Origin: a candidate division WOR-3 bacterium
GTDB taxonomy: Bacteria; Hydrothermota; Tepidihabitantia; Tepidihabitantales; Tepidihabitantaceae
Reading direction: 5' to 3'
DNA length: 56,022 bases
Assembly: GCA_039801365.1 (NCBI GenBank)
Contig: JBDRUN010000006.1
Coordinates: 1 to 56,022 of the forward strand
The stretch's first letter is position 1. Every line of letters starts with the position of its first letter. The notes under the pieces are model-generated. The model did not search any database. It was not told the DNA's origin and saw nothing but the letters and a program-made list of their open reading frames with translations. Positions 5,691 to 49,602 of the stretch are shown one piece after another. The translations under genes were made by a program, and so were the position numbers.

Positions 5691-7043
5691 GTGAAAAGGT
5701 TGTCCCAGTCTGAAATAGACCAACTTGTTGCCAGAGCCAAGAAACCATCAGAGGACGCGATGAAGTTGCACCCGTTCTACCGGGGCAAGTACCAGACCGT
5801 ACCCAAGTGCTGTATCCGTAACTTTGACGACTTCGCCATCTGGTATACACCGGGCGTTGCCGCACCCTGCAAGGACATCTATGCACATCCCGAGATGTCT
5901 TTCCAGCATACCAACCGAGCCAACACAATCTGCGTACTGACCGATGGCACGCGGGTACTTGGTCTGGGCGACATCGGGCCTGAGGCCTCAATGCCGGTAA
6001 TGGAAGGCAAGGCACTGCTCTTCAAGTACCTCGGCGGCGTTGACGCGGTGCCGATTGCGCTACGTACCAAGGACTCAGACGAATTCATCCGTACTGCTAA
6101 GCTCCTGGAACCATCGTTCGGCGGCTTCAATCTCGAGGACATCGCCCAACCCAAATGCTTCCGCATCCTGGACACGCTCCGAGCGGAGATGAACGTGCCT
6201 GTCTGGCACGACGACCAGCAGGGCACAGCCGCGGTCACCTATGCCGGACTCGTGAACGCCTTGAAGTTCGTCGGCAAGGACATCGGCAAGGTGAAGGTAG
6301 CAATGCTTGGAGCCGGAGCTTCGAACATTGCCATATCGCGCGTGTGCATCAAAGGCGGCGTCAATCCGGGAAATATCATTATGTGCGACTCAAAAGGCAC
6401 GCTGCACAAGGGGCGTACCGAGCTTCAGACCGAATTCAAGGAAAAGTGGCATATGTGCCAGATTTCCAACAAATGGGACGTGCGAGGTACCATTGCCGAT
6501 GCCATGAAAGATGCAGACGTACTTATAGCACTTTCCACACCCGGCCCCGGCGTGGTAAAACCAGAATGGATAAAGTCCATGGCCAAAGATGCAATCGTGT
6601 TCGTCTGCGCCAACCCGATTCCAGAAATCTGGCCGTGGGAGGCGATCGAAGCTGGAGCACGGGTGGTTGCGACCGGTCGCTCAGACTTCCCAAACCAGGT
6701 AAACAATTCCCTCGGATTTCCCGGTATCTTCCGTGGTGCGCTGGATGTGAACGCCCGTACCATCACCGACGAAATGTGTATCGCCGCTGCGCTCGAACTT
6801 GCTAAGGTGGCCGAGGACCGCGGTCTGCGCGAGGACTATCTCGTACCGACGATGGACGATTGGGAGGTATTCCCGCGTGAAGCGGTGGCGGTCGGAATGA
6901 AGGCAATCGAACAGGGCGTGGCACGCATCAAGCTGACTCGTGATGAACTGATGGAGAAGGCAACGACCACAATCAAGCAGGCCCGCGAGCTGACCCAGTG
7001 GATGATGAAAGAAGGCTTCATTCCTGAACCACCCAGAGCCTAG
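5691..7043 (+). CDS. Malic enzyme (NAD(P)-dependent, oxaloacetate-decarboxylating)
   Basis: A 450-residue cytoplasmic enzyme of the short bacterial malic enzyme type, converting malate to pyruvate and CO2 with reduction of NAD(P). Visible features are the N-terminal domain (TPGVAAPCKDI; VLTDGTRVLGLGDIG), the metal/substrate loop (EDIAQPKCF), VWHDDQQGTAAVT before the nucleotide fold, the Rossmann motif LGAGASNIA near residue 207, and ATGRSDFPNQVNN. The start codon is GTG, 8 nt after AAAGGA and 12 nt from the end of the transporter gene, so the two are co-transcribed. Cofactor preference cannot be read safely. Confidence 0.92.
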   Translation: MKRLSQSEIDQLVARAKKPSEDAMKLHPFYRGKYQTVPKCCIRNFDDFAIWYTPGVAAPCKDIYAHPEMSFQHTNRANTICVLTDGTRVLGLGDIGPEASMPVMEGKALLFKYLGGVDAVPIALRTKDSDEFIRTAKLLEPSFGGFNLEDIAQPKCFRILDTLRAEMNVPVWHDDQQGTAAVTYAGLVNALKFVGKDIGKVKVAMLGAGASNIAISRVCIKGGVNPGNIIMCDSKGTLHKGRTELQTEFKEKWHMCQISNKWDVRGTIADAMKDADVLIALSTPGPGVVKPEWIKSMAKDAIVFVCANPIPEIWPWEAIEAGARVVATGRSDFPNQVNNSLGFPGIFRGALDVNARTITDEMCIAAALELAKVAEDRGLREDYLVPTMDDWEVFPREAVAVGMKAIEQGVARIKLTRDELMEKATTTIKQARELTQWMMKEGFIPEPPRA

Positions 7044-8038: not shown

Positions 8039-8449
8039 TTGAAGACTGAACGGTTTGCCGAGCTTGTGGAACAGGCCGTAGCCAGCATTCCGGATTACTT
8101 TAGAAAGCGGATTGAGAATGTTCAGATCGACATCATGCCGCAGGCGTCACCTGACCTGGCCCGAAGTCTTGGCCGACACCCGATGCAGCTTCTCGGCGTG
8201 TATCAGGGTATTCCGTACAGGCGCCGCGGACCCTGGTATGGCAATGTTGTGCCGGACCGGATTCTCATTTTCCAGGTTCCAATTGAACGCCAGTGCCAAA
8301 CTGAAGCCGATGTCAGGAGTCTGGTCCGCAAGGTAGTTATTCACGAAGTCGGGCACTATTTCGGTCTTTCGGACGAGGAACTGTTCCGGCTCCAAGCTGA
8401 GGCTGAGCGCGCCCCGCAAACCCACGAGGCAGACAAAGCCGGGATGTAG
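8039..8449 (+). CDS. Small zincin-like metallopeptidase (MMP_TTHA0227 family)
   Basis: A 136-residue cytoplasmic protein with the zinc motif HEVGHYFGLSDEE (HExxHxxGxxD) near residues 101-113. This is the signature of the minimal metallopeptidase family typified by Thermus TTHA0227. The conserved LLGVYQGIP and PDRILIFQ stretches fit the fold. Substrate and role are unknown in the family. The predicted start is TTG (8039) with no Shine-Dalgarno sequence. A weak TATTCG lies 3 nt upstream, but no -35 box is convincing. It ends 17 nt before a strong hairpin. Confidence 0.82.
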   Translation: MKTERFAELVEQAVASIPDYFRKRIENVQIDIMPQASPDLARSLGRHPMQLLGVYQGIPYRRRGPWYGNVVPDRILIFQVPIERQCQTEADVRSLVRKVVIHEVGHYFGLSDEELFRLQAEAERAPQTHEADKAGM

Positions 8450-8465
8450 GATACCATCCGACAGC

Positions 8466-8494
8466 CAGGCGGGGCGCATTTCGCGCCCCGCCTG
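8466..8494. terminator. Bidirectional hairpin terminator
   Basis: A 12-bp GC-rich stem (8466-8477 with 8483-8494) and a 5-nt ATTTC loop. It lies between the convergent peptidase gene (ends 8449) and the secreted-protein gene (ends 8515). Confidence 0.75.
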
Positions 8495-8514
8495 AAGGAA
8501 TTTGCAGACCCTGT

Positions 8515-10242
8515 TTAGTGCTCCAGTATCAGTTTGTGAGTTACCGCCGCATCCTCGGTCTCAAGCCGCACAAGGTAGATACCAGAGGCAAACTGCTTCG
8601 CATCCAGCGTCACCGTACCAAGTAGTCCTCTTGGTGTACTGTACAGGTTACGCACCAGACGGCCGGTCGCGTCATACAGATTGACGCTTACCGCCTGGAA
8701 CCTCGGCACCTGCCACTTGATGGTTGCAACCCCACACACCGGATTCGGGTAGTTCGTGATCCTGAGCGTTGGCTCATGCACTGGTGAGACGCCCTCGGCG
8801 ACACCAACTCCGCCCTGGCACGAAGCCGAGGTAAAATACTCACCCATCGTCCAGGCGGTCCAAGCACCGGGTTGACCATAGAAACTCCGGCCATTGGAGG
8901 TATCATCTGCGCACGAGGACGGGTGACCACCGGTATGAACCGGCCGGACCGAAATGTAGAACTCGCCCGAGTTGAATATAAGGGTCGAGTCGAAGTCAAC
9001 CGCAACAATCGGACCAGGTGTACCAGGTGCTGCCTCAACCGTGTCGGACTCGTACAAGAGCGTCGAGCCGTCACCCGCATAGACCTTGACCGTGAAACTG
9101 GAATCAGGCCACGGGTAGGATGGATGGAGATAGAACTGGTGTCGCATCCGGAAGAGACCTACCGGGTATGTCAGGCCGAAAGTCGCAGGATTGAACTTGG
9201 TCGCCCGCTCCCTGCCGCCCCAAGTCAGCCATGTTAGGCGGTTGAAGTTCGCGTACTCAATCCACCTGGCAACACTCAGGTCGTAAGTGATGGTATCATC
9301 CGCTGGCCACTGCTCGCCTGCGGCCTCAACCCACGATGTGATACGGTAGTTCCCAGAGGTCTGCGGGATGACCCAGGCCGGGGTGAAATTCATCTGCGCA
9401 GTCTGACCCCGGTTCAGGACTGTGGTGGTGTTCACCGTATCCTCATAGGTATAGCCCTGCGGCCCTGCAATACGCACCCGGACCGGCGTTCCAACCGGCA
9501 ACGGATTGTTGCCCAGGTTCTTTATCATTGTCCGGATGTAGAAGTTAATGCCCGGAACCGTGTCTGGCGGCATATTTGAAGCAAAGTACATTGCGGTCGC
9601 ATTCACGTTCTGTGGACTCCAGTCGAGCACCGCCCTTATCAGCCACTCCCCACGTCGTGCATCCTCGGCAAACCCGTCGGTTGAGGAATAGGTCCACTTG
9701 CGGTGTGAGGCCGCGTTGTTGAAAGCGTCAATCGAGAGCCCGGGACATATCGGATACGAGTCAACCTGAACGTAGAAGATATAGAAGTTCGAGCCCACGA
9801 CCGGGCTGCCAATCGGCACGTAGTTCCACTGGCCACGCACAATCGTCAGCTCGCTTGATGCCCAGATTTGAGTTCCAGGCGAACCTCCCGGGCCGTCGTC
9901 AGCGAAAACTTTGACCAGTGCCTTGGTACCGCCCGGCGTGGGCCAGCCGGAGTAGAAGTGAATCAACGCACCAGCCAGCGTGACGTTGTCTGACGGACTA
10001 ATGAACTTCATGCCCCACCCGTTGCCACCCTTCTGCCAAGCCCAGGCCGAAGCCGGTGTGCCGTCATCGTACTTGAAAGTATCAACCGCCGGCATGAAGA
10101 GCTCCGGGACCTGAGGAAATATTCCCGGCTCAGGGTTGGGAATGTTGTAGTGGACACAGGGAGACGGCCCAATCCACTGCTCGGTACCGGCCAGACCCAG
10201 GCCTAAGGCGACTGCCAATAAGAGGACGACTAGCTTACGCAT
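8515..10242 (-). CDS. Secreted beta-rich protein with C-terminal FlgD-like/Por-type sorting domain
   Basis: A 575-residue protein with a signal peptide (MRKLVVLLLAVALGLGLAG). It has long extracellular beta-sandwich regions, including a CARDB-like stretch around residues 210-320 (ATAMYFASNMPPDTVPGINF, NLGNNPLPVGTPVRV). The ~80-residue C-terminal domain shows ITNYPNPVCGVATIKW, LYDATGRLVRNL, ASGIYLVRLE and KLILEH. The same C-terminal design occurs in three other proteins of the window. No catalytic motif was seen. The start is clear: GGAGGAG precedes the ATG at 10242. Confidence 0.82.
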   Translation of the reverse strand: MRKLVVLLLAVALGLGLAGTEQWIGPSPCVHYNIPNPEPGIFPQVPELFMPAVDTFKYDDGTPASAWAWQKGGNGWGMKFISPSDNVTLAGALIHFYSGWPTPGGTKALVKVFADDGPGGSPGTQIWASSELTIVRGQWNYVPIGSPVVGSNFYIFYVQVDSYPICPGLSIDAFNNAASHRKWTYSSTDGFAEDARRGEWLIRAVLDWSPQNVNATAMYFASNMPPDTVPGINFYIRTMIKNLGNNPLPVGTPVRVRIAGPQGYTYEDTVNTTTVLNRGQTAQMNFTPAWVIPQTSGNYRITSWVEAAGEQWPADDTITYDLSVARWIEYANFNRLTWLTWGGRERATKFNPATFGLTYPVGLFRMRHQFYLHPSYPWPDSSFTVKVYAGDGSTLLYESDTVEAAPGTPGPIVAVDFDSTLIFNSGEFYISVRPVHTGGHPSSCADDTSNGRSFYGQPGAWTAWTMGEYFTSASCQGGVGVAEGVSPVHEPTLRITNYPNPVCGVATIKWQVPRFQAVSVNLYDATGRLVRNLYSTPRGLLGTVTLDAKQFASGIYLVRLETEDAAVTHKLILEH

Positions 10243-10775
10243 TACTGCTCCTCCTCACAATACCTGTTCTGCAGGCCTTCTTGCCCTCGAGACCGCGCGG
10301 GCCTTCGGCGATCGCGGACCGATTCTACGTCCGCCGGGCAAGCAATGATAACTATCCCTCCTGGCGAGTCAAGCACCGGCTACGACAAGATATGTGTACT
10401 CATCGGCAGAGATGAAAGAGTCCTTGGCAGCCATGGCCTTTCTGCGGCTACCATTGCGTCTCATCCCTTGGATAAAGAGAATACCTTAGGTAGCCCGTTC
10501 TCGATCCCGAAAGAGCCCAAGACCCTCCTGACGAAATCGTCTCCTTCCTGGGTAGAATGTCCCCGAGGAGAGCCCAAGAACCGCCACAGACCATTGCGTC
10601 ACCCTGAGCGACTGAAGCGAGTCGAAGGGCCCCTCAGGCGAGATTCTTCGCTCCGGCCTTCCGCCGCCGCTCTGAATGACAGCATAGGGCAGGTGAAGCC
10701 AATCCTCGTATCCTGCCAGCCACGATCAGCCTGTATCCGTCACTCCCTGTCGGTTCGCAAGCGAGAATAGCGCTG
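10243..10775. other. Gene-poor spacer with degenerate repeats
   Basis: About 530 bp without a convincing gene. A 141-codon plus-strand frame (10345-10770) has no recognisable domain, no ribosome site and contains a repeat element, so I do not call it. The decamer CCATTGCGTC occurs at 10451 and again 140 bp later at 10591. Short AGCCCAAG copies also recur nearby, suggesting a decayed duplication. Confidence 0.5.
10598..10680. repeat. REP/MITE-like palindromic interspersed element
   Basis: The ends are an imperfect inverted repeat: 10598-10610 (GTCACCCTGAGCG) against the complement of 10668-10680, 10 of 13 positions matching. Internally, AGCGACTGAAGCGAGTCGAAGGG-like and GAGATTCTTCGC segments resemble intergenic palindromic repeats common in many bacterial genomes. 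Copy number cannot be judged from one window. Confidence 0.5.
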
Positions 10776-27077: not shown

Positions 27078-27575
27078 CTAGGTCCTTTTCCGAGCGCTAA
27101 CCGTCTTTCTTCCGTCCCAGCGGAGACCCAGCTGCTTACGGTAACGCCGGCGCTGAAGCGCGCTATAGCCGAGCTTGTCGCACGCCTCCTCGAAGGTCAC
27201 GCCCCGGTCAAGCAGGCGGCGCAGCGAGTCGAGACGACACAGCCGCTGGATGCGGCCAGCTGGCTCAAGCTTCGGACGAACAGTTCTAATAGCCTCCCGC
27301 ACGTGGTAGTCGCTGACTCCGAACTTCTTACCGATCTCCGCCAGGGACATGCCCTTGTCGTGAAGCCTGGCCATCTCGTTGCGCAGTCGCCGGGGCAGAG
27401 TCCGATGCCACGCACGGACTCGACGACCAGGTTTTACCTTCATCCGAGGGACGAGCTGACGGATGCGTTCGCGCGATACCCCGACAGCTCTTGAGAGCTC
27501 GGCCTGCGTCATCGTTCCGACCTTCTTGCCGAGTCTCCGGATAGCTTCAAGCGCAGTCATCTCCTTAGGCTTCAT
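27078..27575 (-). CDS. Protein with three helix-turn-helix units
   Basis: A 165-residue basic protein built of three HTH-like units. They are TQAELSRAVGVSRERIRQLV (residues ~22-41), SLAEIGKKFGVSDYHVREAI (~76-95) and TFEEACDKLGYSALQRRRYR (~126-145), each followed by basic stretches. The first resembles LacI- or sigma-region-4-like helices. No sensor or dimerisation domain is visible. It may be a regulator, a nucleoid-type protein, or a remnant of a transposon resolvase-like regulator; I do not recognise the family. It lies 37 nt after a secreted-protein gene on the same strand. A TTGTGA-16-TAGAGA pair ends 3 nt before its ATG. Confidence 0.7.
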   Translation of the reverse strand: MKPKEMTALEAIRRLGKKVGTMTQAELSRAVGVSRERIRQLVPRMKVKPGRRVRAWHRTLPRRLRNEMARLHDKGMSLAEIGKKFGVSDYHVREAIRTVRPKLEPAGRIQRLCRLDSLRRLLDRGVTFEEACDKLGYSALQRRRYRKQLGLRWDGRKTVSARKRT

Positions 27576-42552: not shown

Positions 42553-42924
42553 CTACGGCGTTGGCGCGCCGATGTTGAACACCTGGGTCCGGATCGTCTC
42601 CAGCACTGACCGGGAGAGACCTCTCGCCACCCACTTGCCGATCAAGGTGGCGGCCTCAACCGCCAGCGACTCACCGGACACCTCGCGCTGGCTCAGGTGC
42701 CACATCTCGCGTCCGAAGCAGAGATAGAACGGGTACTGGATGATCGAAACGCCTTCCTGGTCAATGACCTGCTTCACCTGGCTCTCCATTGCAGCCAGCG
42801 AAACATAGACCGAGTTCACGTGCTCAAGCATCTTAGGCCGCTTCTCGGTCAGGATTGCGTTGACCCGCTCGAGGTTGTACTTCTTGTCCCAGTTCTCGAT
42901 TCTCTTCACCGGATCTGTCGCCAT
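42553..42924 (-). CDS. Small uncharacterised protein, YLxFGRE family member 1
   Basis: A 123-residue, probably all-helical cytoplasmic protein of unknown function. A segment near residues 65-110 (YLCFGREM, then SLAVEAATLIGKWVARGL) is shared with the 132-residue protein at 44856-45254, which has YLDFGREV, LASELEILRHKWTVRGL at the same spacing, so the two are paralogues. The ATG at 42924 has a strong AAAGGAGG. It is downstream of the 89-residue gene and of the sigma genes on the same strand. I do not recognise the family. Confidence 0.75.
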   Translation of the reverse strand: MATDPVKRIENWDKKYNLERVNAILTEKRPKMLEHVNSVYVSLAAMESQVKQVIDQEGVSIIQYPFYLCFGREMWHLSQREVSGESLAVEAATLIGKWVARGLSRSVLETIRTQVFNIGAPTP

Positions 42925-42929
42925 TTCAT

Positions 42930-43157
42930 TCACCTCCTTTCTGCAACAGGATTGGCATCCAGCCGCGGCTGTCCGCCGATTGCGTCCGGAACCCGGGCCA
43001 GGCTTGGCCTCTGCCTGCTGCCAGCCCGAGTCCGGCGGTTCTGACCTCTGCACGCTGTGAACAGAAATCTACAATCAAACCTATCCCCTGCTGTTTGTTC
43101 GGGTCCCGCCCTTCTGAGGGCCAACGTCTGAACACTGGTATCTGACATCATCTTCAT
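42930..43157 (-). CDS. Doubtful 75-codon ORF between two small genes
   Basis: This frame starts in an ATGA overlap with the 89-residue gene and ends in TGA inside the ribosome site of the next gene, 5 nt before its ATG. That is the geometry of a coupled gene. The composition (Arg/Gly/Pro-rich, no hydrophobic pattern) and the GC-rich repetitive DNA argue against it. Listed so the 230-nt gap is not mistaken for empty. Confidence 0.25.
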   Translation of the reverse strand: MKMMSDTSVQTLALRRAGPEQTAGDRFDCRFLFTACRGQNRRTRAGSRQRPSLARVPDAIGGQPRLDANPVAERR

Positions 43158-43423
43158 CTTCTGGCTCCGATATCCGCAATCAGTTGCCTCACCAGGTACC
43201 CTTCGTCCGTTCCCTCGACGTAGTCAAGATACCGCCACAACATCTCCACGAGCACCGCCTCAAGCAACTGGCGCCTGAGCGTTTCCAGCCGCTTCTCCAG
43301 GCAGGCAAGCAAAGCGAGCTGGCCTTGACGTTCCCTCGGCTTCACCGGCCTCTGGGCCGCTGCAACGAGCTTTGATGCGTCGGCAAGAGCCTCAGCCATC
43401 TGCATCAGCGTCGTCAGGCTCAT
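43154..43423 (-). CDS. Small uncharacterised helical protein
   Basis: An 89-residue protein, Leu/Ala/Glu-rich and predicted all-helical (MAEALADASKLVAAA; LACLEKRLETLRRQLLEAVL), with an acidic C-terminal half (YLDYVEGTDEGYLV). No family recognised. The ATG at 43423 has AAAGGAAG upstream. It lies 13 nt downstream of a promoter-like element that is also found, with identical spacing, before the gene at 44856-45254. This suggests common control with the neighbouring sigma factor. Confidence 0.65.
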   Translation of the reverse strand: MSLTTLMQMAEALADASKLVAAAQRPVKPRERQGQLALLACLEKRLETLRRQLLEAVLVEMLWRYLDYVEGTDEGYLVRQLIADIGARR

Positions 43424-43436
43424 ACTCTTCCTTTCA

Positions 43437-43476
43437 TGTTCGACAAATGAGATGCTCCGGGCCTCTAATCTGTGAC
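43437..43476 (-). promoter_or_regulatory. Shared alternative-sigma promoter-like element, copy B
   Basis: On the minus strand: GTCACA (43471-43476), 16 nt, CATCTCA, TTTG, TCGAACA, ending at 43437. It lies 13 nt before the ATG at 43423. Copy A at 45268-45307 has the same words and the same distances. It does not match the TTGACA/TATAAT boxes used elsewhere in the window. Confidence 0.55.
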
Positions 43477-43576
43477 TCCGCCGAAACCACCGAATCATCC
43501 AGGGAGCAACCGGCCGGCAGCCAGCGCGATCAGCTCCAGGCCTGGACCGATACCCCTAACGAACCAACGAAAGACT

Positions 43577-43606
43577 GAAGGCGTCACCTGACCGGGTGAC
43601 GCCTTC
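43577..43606 (-). terminator. Hairpin terminator after the sigma-factor pair
   Basis: A 12-bp stem (GAAGGCGTCACC and complement) with a 6-nt loop, just beyond the stop of the region-4 protein gene (43622) in the direction of transcription. It separates that operon from the element-B promoter. Confidence 0.7.
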
Positions 43607-43621
43607 CTGGTCGCGGCCGGT

Positions 43622-44086
43622 CTAACTCCTTCGCCTTTGTGCTGTGCGCAAGCTGTACCGGAGTCTTGCCAGCCCGTGCCTTACCAGGCGTCGTGCCTCA
43701 GCCGGAGTTACACCCAGCCGGTCGGCAACCACGTCATAGGACCGGTTGTTCAGGCAATGCAGAATCACGGCAAACCGGACCGGCCTGGCCAAGGTCCGAA
43801 GCTCAAGCCAGGCCCAGGCGCAGGGGTCAAACTCGGCTGCTTCAGACCCCAGCTCGGAATCCGCGGCCTCGTCAAGAAAACCGTGAGCCACGCCAAGGTT
43901 CGGCACGCAGGATGACAGGCTCAGGGCTGCCTCACGAAACCAGCTTACAAAGCTCTGCCTCGCCGGCTTCGCTCTAGTCTGCATAAACAGCCTGAACCTT
44001 ATCCACGCATGGTCGGTCTGCTCCGCTGTCACCACAACCGCCCGCTGTGCCAGCTCGGTCAAGTTCTGATAACTGTGCTTCTTCAT
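43622..44086 (-). CDS. Sigma region-4-only protein
   Basis: A 154-residue protein. Residues ~95-150 look like sigma-70 region 4: LARPVRFAVILHCLNNRSYDVVADRLGVTPAEARRLVRHGLARLRYSL, a helix-turn-helix that would touch a -35 element (described here in segments: VVADRLGVT, PAEARRLVRHG). No region 2 is present; the first ~95 residues are unlike any domain I know. It overlaps the full ECF-type sigma gene by 4 nt (ATGA). It could act as a split sigma partner, a co-sigma or an anti-sigma-like decoy. Confidence 0.65.
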   Translation of the reverse strand: MKKHSYQNLTELAQRAVVVTAEQTDHAWIRFRLFMQTRAKPARQSFVSWFREAALSLSSCVPNLGVAHGFLDEAADSELGSEAAEFDPCAWAWLELRTLARPVRFAVILHCLNNRSYDVVADRLGVTPAEARRLVRHGLARLRYSLRTAQRRRS

Positions 44087-44754
44087 CTTCTTTCTCCATT
44101 TCGACCGCCCCTGCTTGCTCTCTCCTCATTCCTCATTCTTCTCACTTCCTTATCTCCCCGTGAAAGCCTTTTCCTCAAAGCCTCGTGGCTCGTTCCCAGC
44201 ACTTCGGCTGCCGCCTGCGGGTCCAGCCCGCAAAGCCGTACCAGGCTCATCGCCTGGGCAATCCTGTCCGGCAGCCGCGAAATCCAGTACGCCAGCTCCA
44301 GGAACGCGGCCCGTTGCTCATCCTGCTCGAACTCCTCAAGCGCAGCCCGCTCGCTGAGTCGCTGTTTCCTTTTCAACTCGTCCTCGACCGTCGGCCCTGG
44401 AAGCTCCTCGAACTCGCCCAAAGACGCTGTTCTTGGCCGTCGTCGCTTCCGTCGCGCAATCATCAGCATCCGATTCTGCGCCACCTTGAACACCCAACTC
44501 GAGAACTTCGACCTGTCTCGGCCCTCAAAACTCGAAAGATGCCTATACACGTCCTCGATCGCCTCCATCGCCGCGTCCTCCACCTCTTGCCGGTTCGGAG
44601 CGAAAAAGCCCCATGCTATCCTCACCAGAATCGGCCAGTACATCTTGAACAGCGGCTCGAACGCATCCGGCCCGTCGGAAAGGGCCGCGGCCAGAACCCC
44701 TGGTTCCGGATTTGGCAGACTCGACACGCGTCTGCGGCGTTCCTGTTCAGGCAT
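44083..44754 (-). CDS. ECF-type RNA polymerase sigma factor
   Basis: A 223-residue sigma-70 family protein. Region 2 covers residues ~30-100 (FEPLFKMYWPILVRIAWGF; AAMEAIEDVYRHL; FSSWVFKVAQNRMLMIARR). Region 4 covers ~150-205 (ISRLPDRIAQAMSLVRL; AAEVLGTSHEALRKRLSRG). The linker is long and charged. The ATG at 44754 is preferred over an upstream start at 44787, because a TTGACA/TAGTTT promoter ends only 5 nt before it, predicting a leaderless mRNA. Coupled to a region-4-only gene and flanked by small paralogous proteins; no recognisable anti-sigma factor adjoins it. Confidence 0.82.
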   Translation of the reverse strand: MPEQERRRRVSSLPNPEPGVLAAALSDGPDAFEPLFKMYWPILVRIAWGFFAPNRQEVEDAAMEAIEDVYRHLSSFEGRDRSKFSSWVFKVAQNRMLMIARRKRRRPRTASLGEFEELPGPTVEDELKRKQRLSERAALEEFEQDEQRAAFLELAYWISRLPDRIAQAMSLVRLCGLDPQAAAEVLGTSHEALRKRLSRGDKEVRRMRNEERASRGGRNGERR

Positions 44755-44759
44755 GGACC

Positions 44760-44787
44760 AAACTACATCCAGCCCCACGGCTGTCAA
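44760..44787 (-). promoter_or_regulatory. Promoter of the ECF sigma gene, leaderless type
   Basis: A perfect TTGACA (44782-44787), 16-bp spacer, TAGTTT (44760-44765) on the minus strand. The ATG at 44754 is 5 nt after the -10 box. The sigma gene itself thus seems to be made from a housekeeping promoter. Confidence 0.6.
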
Positions 44788-44855
44788 CGCTCAATTTCCG
44801 CTGACTGCTGCCCGCCGACCACCTTCTATCCCTCAAGGTCCTCACTCCTGACCCC

Positions 44856-45254
44856 TCACATCTGCAACCTGCTATCCGCTAACGTCTGGTTCAGCATCTC
44901 AACTACCGCGGCCTCCACCTTCTCCAGGGTCTTCGGGTCCAACCCTCTCACAGTCCACTTGTGCCTCAGGATTTCAAGCTCTGAGGCCAACGCGTGACTT
45001 GGAACCTTCCTCCACCTGCCATACACCTCACGTCCGAAATCCAGATACCAGACCCACACTAACATCGGAGCACCGTCGGTGGCCTGCCGAACCGTTGCCT
45101 CAACAAGACGTAGCAACTCAGCCTGTTTACGATACTTAGCCAGCATTACTCCGCCCAGGTCATCCAACACATCCGAAACAAGCTTCGGGTTCATCCGGCA
45201 TGCATAGTTCGCCGAGTCATTCTCGAACTGCTTTGGCTTCTTTGTGTCTTTCAT
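44856..45254 (-). CDS. Small uncharacterised protein, YLxFGRE family member 2
   Basis: A 132-residue, mostly helical protein of unknown function, paralogous to the protein at 42553-42924: YLDFGREV near residue 73, then LASELEILRHKWTVRGL and a helical LEKVEAAVVEML tail. The ATG at 45254 has AAAGGAG. It is preceded at 13 nt by the shared GTCACA/CATCTCA element (copy A). It lies directly upstream of the ECF sigma gene on the same strand. Confidence 0.72.
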   Translation of the reverse strand: MKDTKKPKQFENDSANYACRMNPKLVSDVLDDLGGVMLAKYRKQAELLRLVEATVRQATDGAPMLVWVWYLDFGREVYGRWRKVPSHALASELEILRHKWTVRGLDPKTLEKVEAAVVEMLNQTLADSRLQM

Positions 45255-45693
45255 GTTTCTCCTTTACTGTTCGATAAGTGAGATGCACGGACCCCAAGAA
45301 ATGTGACATTTTGCCATCCCCGGGGTGGCTTGGCACACTCCCTGCCCTGCGGTCTGCCCTGCTCCGTGCCTCGTCCTTTGCCAAGCCGCCTATTCTGCCG
45401 CCTGGGCCGCTGCGTGTATCATTGCCCGACCCGCTTCCTGCCTTGCGGTCTGACTGACGGTTCGCCCTGCTGCCTATCCATCGGCCTGCCTTGCGCCTTG
45501 GTCTGCTGCCTGCCCCGCAGTCCAGCTTGCCGCTTGGCCTACGGTCTGACCTGCGCTCTGCCTTTCGGTCTGTGCCGCCACCTGCCTCGCGGCCTGGCCT
45601 ACTCCCTACCTTGGCGTCTGGCTCGCCGCCGGTACTGCTGCCTGTCTTACGGTGCCACCCGTACTTCCTCTTAGTGGTCTCGACTTCATCCAC
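45217..45693 (-). CDS. Doubtful ORF encoding a tetrapeptide-repeat protein
   Basis: A 158-codon frame starting GTG whose central ~105 residues are a four-residue repeat (units like DRKA, GSRP, RRKA, GSRA), the translation of the 12-bp tandem repeat. It overlaps the next gene by 38 nt and runs through promoter element A. The opposite strand is also open with an LPCG-type repeat, as expected of a 12-bp repeat without stops. No ribosome site was seen, so coding status is uncertain. Confidence 0.3.
   Translation of the reverse strand: MDEVETTKRKYGWHRKTGSSTGGEPDAKVGSRPGREAGGGTDRKAERRSDRRPSGKLDCGAGSRPRRKAGRWIGSRANRQSDRKAGSGSGNDTRSGPGGRIGGLAKDEARSRADRRAGSVPSHPGDGKMSHFLGSVHLTYRTVKEKHERHKEAKAVRE
45268..45307 (-). 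promoter_or_regulatory. Shared alternative-sigma promoter-like element, copy A
   Basis: On the minus strand: GTCACA (45302-45307 in plus coordinates), 16 nt, CATCTCA, CTTA, TCGAACA, ending at 45268. It lies 13 nt before the ATG at 45254. Matches copy B (43437-43476) in all words and spacings, while the spacer between them is not conserved. Confidence 0.55.
45345..45656. repeat. 12-bp degenerate tandem repeat, 26 units
   Basis: Read in steps of 12 from 45345, every unit ends mostly in CTG or TG and fits the consensus GCCTGCGGTCTG (plus strand). Examples are CCCTGCGGTCTG, CCTTGCGGTCTG, GCCTACGGTCTG and CCTCGCGGCCTG. There is no indel over 312 bp. Two weaker units may precede it (45321-45344). 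Confidence 0.85.
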
Positions 45694-45707
45694 TCAGCTC
45701 AACTGAA

Positions 45708-45947
45708 CTATCTCCGCGTGTCTTGCAACCGGCTCTCGATTTGCTCTCCCTCTCCTTGACTTCGCGCTCGAAATCGGCTATAAGTCCGCAATGCGAGTAA
45801 GTGGGCAAGTTCAGACGGGCCGGCCTCAAGCCGCAGAGCCCAGAAATAATCCCAGGGCAGGTGGGACAGCGAAACGATATGCAGAACAAGCAGAAACAAG
45901 AGGGTACTGAGCAAAACGTAACGCAGCCACAAACGAGGTCTTGTCAA
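45708..45947 (-). CDS. Possible small membrane protein next to the insertion sequence
   Basis: A 79-codon frame with a TTG start at 45947 and one strong hydrophobic segment (YVLLSTLLFLLVLHIVSL) followed by a basic tail. The start lies only 4 nt inside from the IS terminal repeat, so the true N-terminus may have been removed by the insertion. No family recognised and no ribosome site. Confidence 0.3.
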   Translation of the reverse strand: MTRPRLWLRYVLLSTLLFLLVLHIVSLSHLPWDYFWALRLEAGPSELAHLLALRTYSRFRARSQGEGEQIESRLQDTRR

Positions 45948-45950
45948 ATT

Positions 45951-47339
45951 CTGTGGAAATAGATTCGGCGGTGTAGTAATAGCTCATGCTAGTTTGACCT
46001 CGACTCCGTCATGGTACTTGGCTCCAGCAACGACTGCCGCAACCAGGTGCGGCGCACTGAGCCGGAACCAGCGTGTCTCCTGCTCGAGCAGAAGCCTGTA
46101 TACCAGTCCCAGCGCTGACCAGTAGCGCATCAGCCGCTTCGCCCGCTTCACCCGGCTCTTCACCGGTGCAAACGCCGACTCAACCGGGTTGGTCGTCTTT
46201 AGGTGCCGCCAGTGCTCCTTGGGGAAGTCGAAGTAGCTCAGAAGGTCATCCTGCTTCTCCAACAGACACTTCACTGCTGGCGGATGTAACCGATAGTGGT
46301 CGGCAAAGTACACAATCCAGCTCACCGCCTCAGCTTTGCTACCAGCCTCATAGATCCGCACCAGGTCCTTGTGCGCCTGCTGCTGCCTGGCCTTCGGCAG
46401 TTTGTCGAGCACGTTACGAATCATGTGTACCCAGCACCGCTGACGCCGGGCCTCAGGAAACGCCTCCCCAAACGCTCGCCAGAACCCGGGAATACCATCC
46501 GCCACCGCCAGCCCAACCCATTTGACCCCACGCCGTACCAAGTCGCGTAACACTTCCAGCCATTGCTCGTAACTCTCCCGCTGCCCAGGTATCATCGCCA
46601 GTATCCGCTTCCTGCCCTCCGCATCTGCACCCATCACTACCAAAAGCGCCAGTTTCTCTTTGTTCTGGCCCACCTTGATGTAGATACCGTCGGCCCAGAT
46701 ATAGGCGTAGTGAGAAGCCAAAGGCTCATTCCGCCAAGCCTCGTAGTCCAGATACCACCGTTGTTTCAAGCGGGCAATGGTGGACGGACTCAATGCTGCT
46801 CCGACACCTAACAGGCACTCCAGCGCCGCCTCGAAGTCACCGGTCGAGATGCCATACAGGTAGAGCTGAGGTAGGGTAGCCAGGACCGCAGAGCTGCTTC
46901 TTTGATAGCGCGGCAATAGACCCGACTCAAAGGGCTCGGCGTTATCCGCCACCCTGGGCAATCGGACCCGAACACTGCCGCTGCCAAGATGGACCTGCCG
47001 CGGCTCGCCATGGCCGTTGCGATAACCTCGGAACTGCTCGTCACTTACCCGCTCGTACCTGGCGCGCTCCAGAAACGTCTCCCGTTCTTCATCCAGCGCA
47101 TCCTGTAGCTTCTCCTGGGCGCCTTCTAGTGCTTTCTTATCCAACAGGCTGGCCGAGTCTTGGCGCAGCTTGTGTCTCAGCCGGCGCATTGCCCGTTGCT
47201 CCTTGCGTTCCCGCCTTCTTCTTGCATTATCCTGCTCTTTCTGATACTCTGACATAGCGGTGTCTCCTTTCTCGGGCTTCCGCCCGGTCTTACTACATAC
47301 ACATAGAATTGTAGACACCGCTTCATCTTTTTTCCACAG
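45951..47339 (-). mobile_element. IS256-family insertion sequence
   Basis: About 1.39 kb with imperfect terminal inverted repeats of ~25 bp: left end 45951-45974 begins CTGTGGAAA and ends GCGGTGT. The right end 47315-47339, read on the minus strand, begins CTGTGGAAAA and also ends GCGGTGT. One transposase gene fills it. I see no 8-9 bp target duplication next to these ends, so the exact outer limits or the age of the insertion are uncertain. Confidence 0.8.
45984..47255 (-). CDS. IS256-family (mutator-type) transposase
   Basis: A 423-residue DDE transposase that looks intact. Catalytic residues lie in YIWADGIYIKVG, LAVADGIPGFWRAF and TTNPVESAFAPVKSR, the usual Mutator/IS256 motifs, with the QRCWVHMIRNVLDKLP signature between the second Asp and the Glu. 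The N-terminus is very basic and coiled. The ATG at 47255 is preferred because GGAGA precedes it; an open extension to 47318 enters the terminal repeat. No frameshift or internal stop. Confidence 0.93.
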   Translation of the reverse strand: MSEYQKEQDNARRRRERKEQRAMRRLRHKLRQDSASLLDKKALEGAQEKLQDALDEERETFLERARYERVSDEQFRGYRNGHGEPRQVHLGSGSVRVRLPRVADNAEPFESGLLPRYQRSSSAVLATLPQLYLYGISTGDFEAALECLLGVGAALSPSTIARLKQRWYLDYEAWRNEPLASHYAYIWADGIYIKVGQNKEKLALLVVMGADAEGRKRILAMIPGQRESYEQWLEVLRDLVRRGVKWVGLAVADGIPGFWRAFGEAFPEARRQRCWVHMIRNVLDKLPKARQQQAHKDLVRIYEAGSKAEAVSWIVYFADHYRLHPPAVKCLLEKQDDLLSYFDFPKEHWRHLKTTNPVESAFAPVKSRVKRAKRLMRYWSALGLVYRLLLEQETRWFRLSAPHLVAAVVAGAKYHDGVEVKLA

Positions 47340-49038: not shown

Positions 49039-49602
49039 TCACACCAACCCTTTCTTGTGCGCCGGCTCCAGGAACTTGCGCAGATTTTGCCTTGCCCGGA
49101 ACAGAAGTGAATCCACTGCCCGTACCGTCTTGCCCATCGCGCGGGCAATTTCACTGTAACTCATGTCTTCGTAGGTACAGAGCACCAAAGCAGACCGCTG
49201 GTCTGCTGGGAGCTGATTCAGGGCTGCCTGCACCAGTTGCTCGCGCTGCCTTCGACGGAAAGTTTCGTCCGGCTCCTCGGACTCAGGCCCGGGCAGCGAT
49301 TCCGGGATTTCCGCGGTCGGTTTCGTACGTTGCAGTCGGTTTATCGCCAGGTTAGTCCCGATTCGGAACAGCCAGGTCTTGAAACTCGACCGACCCTGGA
49401 ACCCCTTGATGCTCTGCCATGCCCGCACCAGTGCGGCCTGCGCCATTTCCTCGGCTTCATCCCGGTTACCGCACATCCGATACAAGTATGAGAAAAGCGG
49501 TCGCTGGTACCGCCGCACCAGCTCCTCAAAAGCGACGAGGTCCGCGGCCTGGGCCCGACGAACCAGGTCTAAGTCCTGTTCAGAGACTGGTATCTTTACC
49601 AT
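49039..49602 (-). CDS. rpoE: ECF sigma factor (RpoE/SigW-like)
   Basis: A 187-residue ECF sigma. Region 2 spans ~25-90 (LVRRYQRPLFSYLYRMCGN; EEMAQAALVRAW; FKTWLFRIGTNLAINRLQR). Region 4 spans ~125-178 (NQLPADQRSALVLCTYEDMSYSEIA; VRAVDSLLFRARQNLRKFL). It heads a four-gene unit: sigma, anti-sigma, and two periplasmic sensor or chaperone-like proteins. No TTGACA/TATAAT promoter was found near its ATG, and no copy of the GTCACA element either. Confidence 0.93.
   Translation of the reverse strand: MVKIPVSEQDLDLVRRAQAADLVAFEELVRRYQRPLFSYLYRMCGNRDEAEEMAQAALVRAWQSIKGFQGRSSFKTWLFRIGTNLAINRLQRTKPTAEIPESLPGPESEEPDETFRRRQREQLVQAALNQLPADQRSALVLCTYEDMSYSEIARAMGKTVRAVDSLLFRARQNLRKFLEPAHKKGLV

Follow-up and report, generated by a model that had tools for sequence, protein, structure and literature searches.

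What are two related small proteins doing at the two ends of a sigma factor gene cluster? The question is raised by a locus in the window analysed here, a stretch of 56,022 nucleotides that constitutes contig C6 of a 2.5-Mb genome (G000) of candidate division WOR-3, now Caldifarciminota. Five genes on its minus strand encode, in transcription order, Y1, an ECF-type sigma factor, a region-4-only sigma-like protein, a small helical protein B and core Y. Here Y denotes the family of proteins carrying a YLxFGRE pattern, Y1 being protein P0001 and core Y protein P0005. A preliminary description of the window, made from its sequence, had reported these five genes, and the set stands: all five frames are open where they had been placed and score as coding by a dicodon model. 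The same description took the set for a self-contained sigma system in which Y would be a novel regulator or output specific to the sigma, and this part was not supported. The Y proteins are almost certainly bacterial homologues of a viral protein, the major coat protein of Adnaviria. These archaeal filamentous viruses package their DNA in A-form.

Y1 (132 residues, 44856-45254, minus strand) is a divergent paralogue of core Y (123 residues, 42553-42924, minus strand), whose start at ATG 42924 agrees with the N-terminus of the family. The likeness of their YLxFGRE...KWxxRGL patterns, which the preliminary description had pointed out, is true homology as judged by sequence comparison (BLASTP E 1e-10, 30% identity across 108 residues). 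In scans of the window proteins, neither had a Pfam or NCBIfam match above cut-off.

An AlphaFold model of P0005, built from the window sequence together with related loci, was all-helical with a pLDDT of 82, the first 30 residues being less sure. When this model was compared with the PDB by Foldseek, the seven best matches were all coat proteins of archaeal filamentous viruses, six with probability 1.00 and the seventh with 0.92. Among them were SIRV2 (3j9x, TM 0.68/0.66), AFV1 ORF140, AFV1 ORF132 and the SIRV C-terminal domain, with a root-mean-square deviation of 1.5 Å. Against a viral library, the best match was unnamed, and the second and third were named coat proteins of archaeal filamentous viruses. 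The model of P0001 (pLDDT 81) had as its best PDB match the AFV1 ORF140 coat protein (probability 1.00), with the SIRV coat C-terminus third (probability 0.69), so that Y1 too is predicted to have the SIRV fold. For core Y, a helical-bundle core with an N-terminal helical arm was predicted, the arm at low confidence. In the AFV1 coat the N-terminal regions are helix-turn-helix arms folded over the DNA; in the Y models the arm position is taken by two short N-terminal helices, again of low confidence, which bear the conserved residues R8 and W12.

The Foldseek E-values were singly weak, and independent sequence tests were therefore run. The Pfam family Sulf_coat_C (PF12193) was matched by 29 of 35 core Y members, with a best E-value of 4.1e-7, and two other coat families of filamentous archaeal viruses were each matched by four of the 35. 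P0005 taken alone scored 17.7 bits against Sulf_coat_C, below the Pfam cut-off of 25.2. In a search of all PDB sequences with a Y profile, the top five entries were the coat proteins of SIRV2, SSRV1, SFV1 and AFV1 (two entries), with E-values of 0.0024-0.02. In a profile-profile comparison by hhalign, Y was aligned with eight adnaviral coat proteins, six from rudiviruses and two from AFV1; the probability was 96.4% (E 1.2e-9), and 96.8% (E 2.5e-10) in a rerun. None of 100 column shuffles exceeded 2.3%, and reversing the alignment gave 0.2%. Single Y sequences were also compared with the open reading frames of SIRV2 and AFV1, and all of the 20 best matches fell on the coat proteins of these viruses. 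Homology of Y to the adnaviral coat, which rests on the agreement of these several sequence and modelling methods, is thus well supported. Y was thereby placed, unexpectedly, in a known family unrelated to sigma regulation.

The sole match to the Y profile outside the order of the window genome was a protein on contig C173 of genome G073 (E 2.5e-9). That this protein is an adnaviral coat protein is clear (Sulf_coat_C 6e-16; SIRV2 coat 1e-17), and in sequence it bridges the Y family and the adnaviral coat family. The contig itself (L239, 1-10269) is 10 kb long with 28% GC, is binned in a metagenome-assembled genome of the same bacterial phylum, and also carries further genes of rudivirus type, among them one like SIRV2 ORF335 (E 2e-35) and an ORF121-like gene. 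It may be contamination of that assembly, for which 7% is listed, or a filamentous virus associated with bacteria.

A second feature of the locus, overlooked in the preliminary description, is a degenerate 12-nt tandem-repeat tract at 45293-45746, 39 nt 5′ of Y1, with a unit of approximately GGCAGACCGCAA on the minus strand. Tracts were scanned for as period 12 at lags 12, 24 and 36, and genome-wide tract statistics came from genome samples. The window tract was the only one in 56 kb, scoring 0.54 compared with a maximum of 0.37 in 40 Markov resamples; its match was 0.41-0.45 at the three lags and about 0.28 at other lags. Tracts beside Y genes were 250-780 nt long, with a constant 12-nt period and a locus-specific unit. 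In the window's own genome, eight of 13 Y loci had a tract 5′ of Y, no more than 1.5 kb away, and none of the 13 had one 3′ of it (P ~4e-13, the background being 3 tracts in 480 kb). Across six genomes of the family, a tract lay within 600 nt 5′ in 40 of 86 Y genes, and 3′ in one. In G021, an AT-rich genome of another family, the tract lay directly 3′ of the Y gene or Y pair in five of the six Y loci examined, and in a 320-kb sample of G013 all four Y genes had one. No tract was found in 220 kb from two sampled genomes that lack Y. In one case in G021 (L226:2205-2599) the tract separates a Y pair from an HU gene (Bac_DNA_binding 7e-31).

The repeat unit itself is not shared. Unit sequences were unrelated between loci and between genomes, which rejects a common recognition sequence, and a 5′ motif, GCAGTCAAGCCGAGA, marked only a few tracts, in G003 and G013. 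A coding repeat was also rejected: frames are open in places and unconserved. The tract is not the repeat RNA of a type III toxin-antitoxin system; such systems combine a ToxN-like toxin with near-identical repeats of about 36 nt, and the window locus has neither, no toxin family being matched and the repeats being degenerate, of period 12 and locus-specific. What is constant is the period. SIRV2, AFV1 and SFV1 have as their asymmetric unit one dimer of the coat protein together with 12 bp of A-form DNA (PMC5517147, PMC6105669), and 12-bp indels are common in rudiviruses and lipothrixviruses (PMC4390879). A fixed period with free sequence would be expected if the footprint of a sequence-blind protein sets the period. 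The 12-bp tracts are probably tied mechanistically to Y.

The coat homology could be real and the repeats nevertheless unrelated to it, being independent minisatellites that gather in long intergenic regions, places in which dispersed Y genes are found as well. Such a coincidence would account for tracts without Y, for Y without tracts, and for the unrelated units. It fits less well with an association that recurs in two bacterial families, which differ in GC content and in the side of Y on which the tract lies, with the strength of the enrichment in the window's own genome, or with the lack of tracts in the sampled Y-less genomes. The period is also specific: in 746 kb scanned, period 12 gave 50 tracts, periods 10, 11 and 13 none, and periods 14, 9 and 15 only 4, 5 and 2, respectively. 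We consider coincidence rather unlikely.

The distribution of Y bears on whether these are viral genes. With an E-value limit of 1, P0005 had 24 matches within its own genome; of 41 genomes searched, 28 contained matches, with up to 36 in one genome. The profile of 35 members was present in all 28 genomes of the order and in one of 119 other genomes of the phylum. Y genes lie on long chromosomal contigs among ordinary bacterial genes. Across nine Y pairs dN/dS was 0.02-0.34, and the copies are therefore under purifying selection; a few are truncated or have in-frame stops.

These loci might still be remnants of a lineage of filamentous bacterial viruses, a bacterial Adnaviria, in which the Y genes would be coat genes that had decayed or been captured, and the ECF sigma would have been the viral transcription switch. 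The homologues of Y are, after all, viral coat proteins; serial truncated 3′ ends or in-frame stops are present at some Y loci; tandem Y pairs resemble the two coat paralogues of lipothrixviruses; and the G073 contig is a true adnavirus-like contig in a genome of the same phylum. Decayed viruses would be hard to reconcile with genes that are universal in the order, mostly solo and under purifying selection on long chromosomal contigs. At the Y loci examined, nothing was recognised as P1070, a glycosyltransferase, a resolvase or any further adnaviral gene, and two scans of viral contigs gave no relative; these scans used conserved-peptide patterns, and a profile made from all core Y proved too diverse for scanning. 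From gene content, membership of the Y loci in Adnaviria as virus or provirus is not supported, and we judge a viral remnant improbable.

Y and its tract might instead form a dispersing genetic element with a recombination site at the 3′ end. Such a site would explain a region of contig C56 in the window's own genome (L072), where five extra copies of only the Y 3′ end (6711-6756, 8407-8535, 8591-8728, 10096-10229 and 10374-10405) lie in one orientation with unrelated genes between them, followed by a complete Y. Recent Y duplicates of 1.2-1.4 kb within one genome would also fit. The C56 ends do resemble the attachment sites of a transposon or integron-like cassette, but in the two pairs of duplicates inspected elsewhere there were no terminal inverted repeats and no common end, and one pair extends into the neighbouring gene. 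No shared integrase or transposase was seen, and some Y copies are syntenic between species. A transposon or cassette was accordingly not favoured, and a dispersing element of any such kind appears quite improbable.

The link to sigma factors, with which this locus was first associated, is real and partial. Of 74 ECF-type sigma genes in eight genomes, 30 had a Y gene no more than 2 kb away, in every case on the same strand, compared with 1.5 expected. The proposal that Y travels with the sigma thus stands for the P0005 clade, to which most sigma-linked Y genes belong, with other small proteins sometimes intervening; it fails for most Y genes, which have no sigma nearby and are scattered through the genomes on their own. 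The fullest order began with a tract, followed by one to three divergent Y genes, at some loci cargo, the sigma, sometimes a small acidic protein, and core Y, with shorter variants consisting of the sigma and then core Y. The window locus is a variant in which the region-4-only protein and protein B take the place of the acidic protein. Y-linked sigmas fall into several divergent lineages, one of which includes the window sigma. Directly downstream of the Y-linked sigma in L095, L096, L107, L123, L126 and L072 lies a protein of about 64-147 residues (FTDAELDLxGEFSDA...), a candidate anti-sigma or sigma partner.

Could Y then be the anti-sigma factor or co-regulator of the adjacent ECF sigma? 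The same-strand linkage and the recurrent order of sigma, small protein and core Y would suit such a module, but with most Y genes lacking a sigma, no anti-sigma family or zinc-finger match for P0001 or P0005, a predicted fold of another kind (that of a DNA-wrapping coat), and at several loci a better anti-sigma candidate beside the sigma, namely a distinct acidic protein of about 90 residues, we regard it as very improbable.

At the few loci where cargo was looked at, it comprised a type III restriction-modification set, a Schlafen/AlbA-type protein, a type II methyltransferase and a SocA/Panacea-type XRE protein. A large cargo family of 1077-1372 residues was present at two sigma-Y loci of different genomes (L126:8369-11602 and L081:3626-7744; BLASTP 6e-42). 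It had no Pfam, PHROGs or PADLOC match, and a possible identity with rudiviral P1070 was rejected for lack of similarity.

Taken together, the best reading, which we favour with moderate confidence, is that Y proteins are chromosomal DNA-wrapping proteins related to the viral coat and sometimes under sigma control. The Y proteins would be the DNA-coating proteins of this bacterial order, assembling dimer by dimer, and assembly would nucleate beside their own genes. The 12-bp quantum of the filament would maintain or generate the locus-specific 12-bp tandem repeats. In the sigma-linked subset, including the window, the divergent ECF sigma would drive the set of Y1 and core Y, and where restriction or other defence-type genes are enclosed the result might be a switchable coating, silencing or protection of the neighbourhood. 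The ground for this reading is what was observed, namely the homology, the predicted fold, the number of copies, their purifying selection, the 12-nt tracts next to Y genes and the linkage to sigmas; dimerisation, DNA wrapping, the A-form, the tie between footprint and repeat, silencing and control by the sigma are inferred. The parts of this reading differ in strength. That Y binds and coats DNA is likely; a silencing or protective chromatin role is tentative, and in our estimate falls somewhat below an even chance. The full picture, a cellular A-form-DNA system in which up to dozens of SIRV-fold proteins coat the chromosome in 12-bp steps and leave 12-bp arrays behind, a sigma-controlled subset guarding or silencing defence loci, stands just short of even.

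Several observations weigh against the best reading. Singly, the Foldseek and HMMER E-values are modest (0.002-0.01; best Foldseek 0.009). The N-terminal arm, the presumed DNA contact, was modelled at a pLDDT of only 49-65, and Y proteins are mildly basic, with a mean charge of +2.9 compared with +6 to +9 for rudiviral coats. Tracts also occur without Y, at 22 places in the 320 kb of G013 and three in 480 kb of the window's own genome, while the low-copy genomes G001 and G009 have Y and no tract in the samples taken. The side of Y on which the tract lies differs between two families, 5′ in one and 3′ in the other, and by the same score the SIRV2 and AFV1 genomes themselves show no period-12 excess. 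The apparent association with defence genes comes from only a few loci. In G013, most of the 22 tract places, on contig C81 (L132-L147), are intergenic and have no Y gene.

The remaining genes of the window locus, all on the minus strand, are as follows. The ECF-type sigma occupies 44083-44754 from ATG 44754, or starts at TTG 44787, and contains both sigma-70 regions 2 and 4 in one short protein (TIGR02937 9.2e-20; PF04542, Sigma70_r2, 4.1e-9). The region-4-only protein (154 residues, 43622-44086) overlaps the sigma by ATGA, confirming the coupling noted earlier, and matches PF08281 at 2.6e-5 with 24.2 bits, 1.5 bits below the cut-off of 25.7. Region 2 is absent, so it does not count as an ECF sigma, which has regions 2 and 4, and no counterpart was seen among the other Y loci compared. 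Protein B (89 residues, 43154-43423) begins at ATG 43423 by dicodon start call, and its single homologue found, in G017, a genome of the same family (L126:13097-13378), is likewise placed between a sigma and core Y. The starts of protein B and core Y both depart from the naive open reading frames.

Upstream of the locus lies a Mutator-family transposase (45984-47255), and downstream an ABC transporter. Between 48046 and 49554 on the minus strand lies a second, ordinary ECF sigma (49039-49554) with a zf-HC2 anti-sigma, apparently unrelated to the Y locus, followed by a small membrane-anchored protein with no Pfam match. The zf-HC2 protein belongs to this other sigma, and the earlier statement that no known anti-sigma adjoins the window sigma is correct. 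Farther away, at 27078-27572 on the minus strand, lies a 164-residue protein with at least two sigma-region-4 or helix-turn-helix-like repeats and no region 2.

Adnaviria have been described as archaea-specific and unconnected to any bacterial virus (PMC10848233, PMC10848311). In the open-access literature (subscription papers and preprints being outside the scope), no report of bacterial homologues of the adnaviral coat was found, and Y is a new bacterial, chromosomal, multi-copy branch of this known family. The adnaviral coat protein defines a whole virus realm, and with a bacterial chromosomal family of the same ancestry the origin of the coat becomes directly testable, as does the direction of transfer between viruses and cells. 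If the tracts are the footprint of a coat dimer, they would be the genomic trace of a protein filament, and they may also be relevant to the indels of 12 bp in rudiviruses and lipothrixviruses. A cellular A-form-DNA system, if it exists, would give the adnaviral coat its first counterpart in cells, and the realm might have sprung from such a system or given rise to it.

The closest known relatives of Y are thus the Adnaviria coats themselves (SIRV2 ORF134, AFV1 ORF132/ORF140, SFV1 VP4/VP5; PF12193, PF21660). These have a collinear similarity to Y of about 110 residues, and the two groups have in common a length of 115-140 residues, a predicted helical fold with an N-terminal helical arm, tandem paralogue pairs of the lipothrixvirus kind, and a 12-bp unit, as footprint in the viruses and as repeat period at Y loci. 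Unlike those coats, Y resides on bacterial chromosomes in many dispersed copies, is linked to ECF sigmas and has no known virion. The Y-linked sigmas agree with known ECF sigmas (TIGR02937 superfamily) in their regions 2 and 4 and in an operon-like order with small downstream proteins; they differ in having no classical anti-sigma neighbour, in adjoining coat-protein homologues and in their several divergent lineages.

Two further comparisons are of analogy only. H-NS, Lsr2 and HU are small chromosomal proteins that coat DNA near foreign or defence-type genes, as is proposed for Y, with which they share no sequence or fold relation; the 12-bp repeat arrays and the proposed A-form wrapping set Y apart from them. 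Encapsulins and other cellular relatives of capsids provide a conceptual parallel, the use of a viral capsid fold by the cell. Encapsulins have the HK97 fold and form a closed shell, whereas the fold that the cell would have put to use in Y is that of a coat that wraps DNA.

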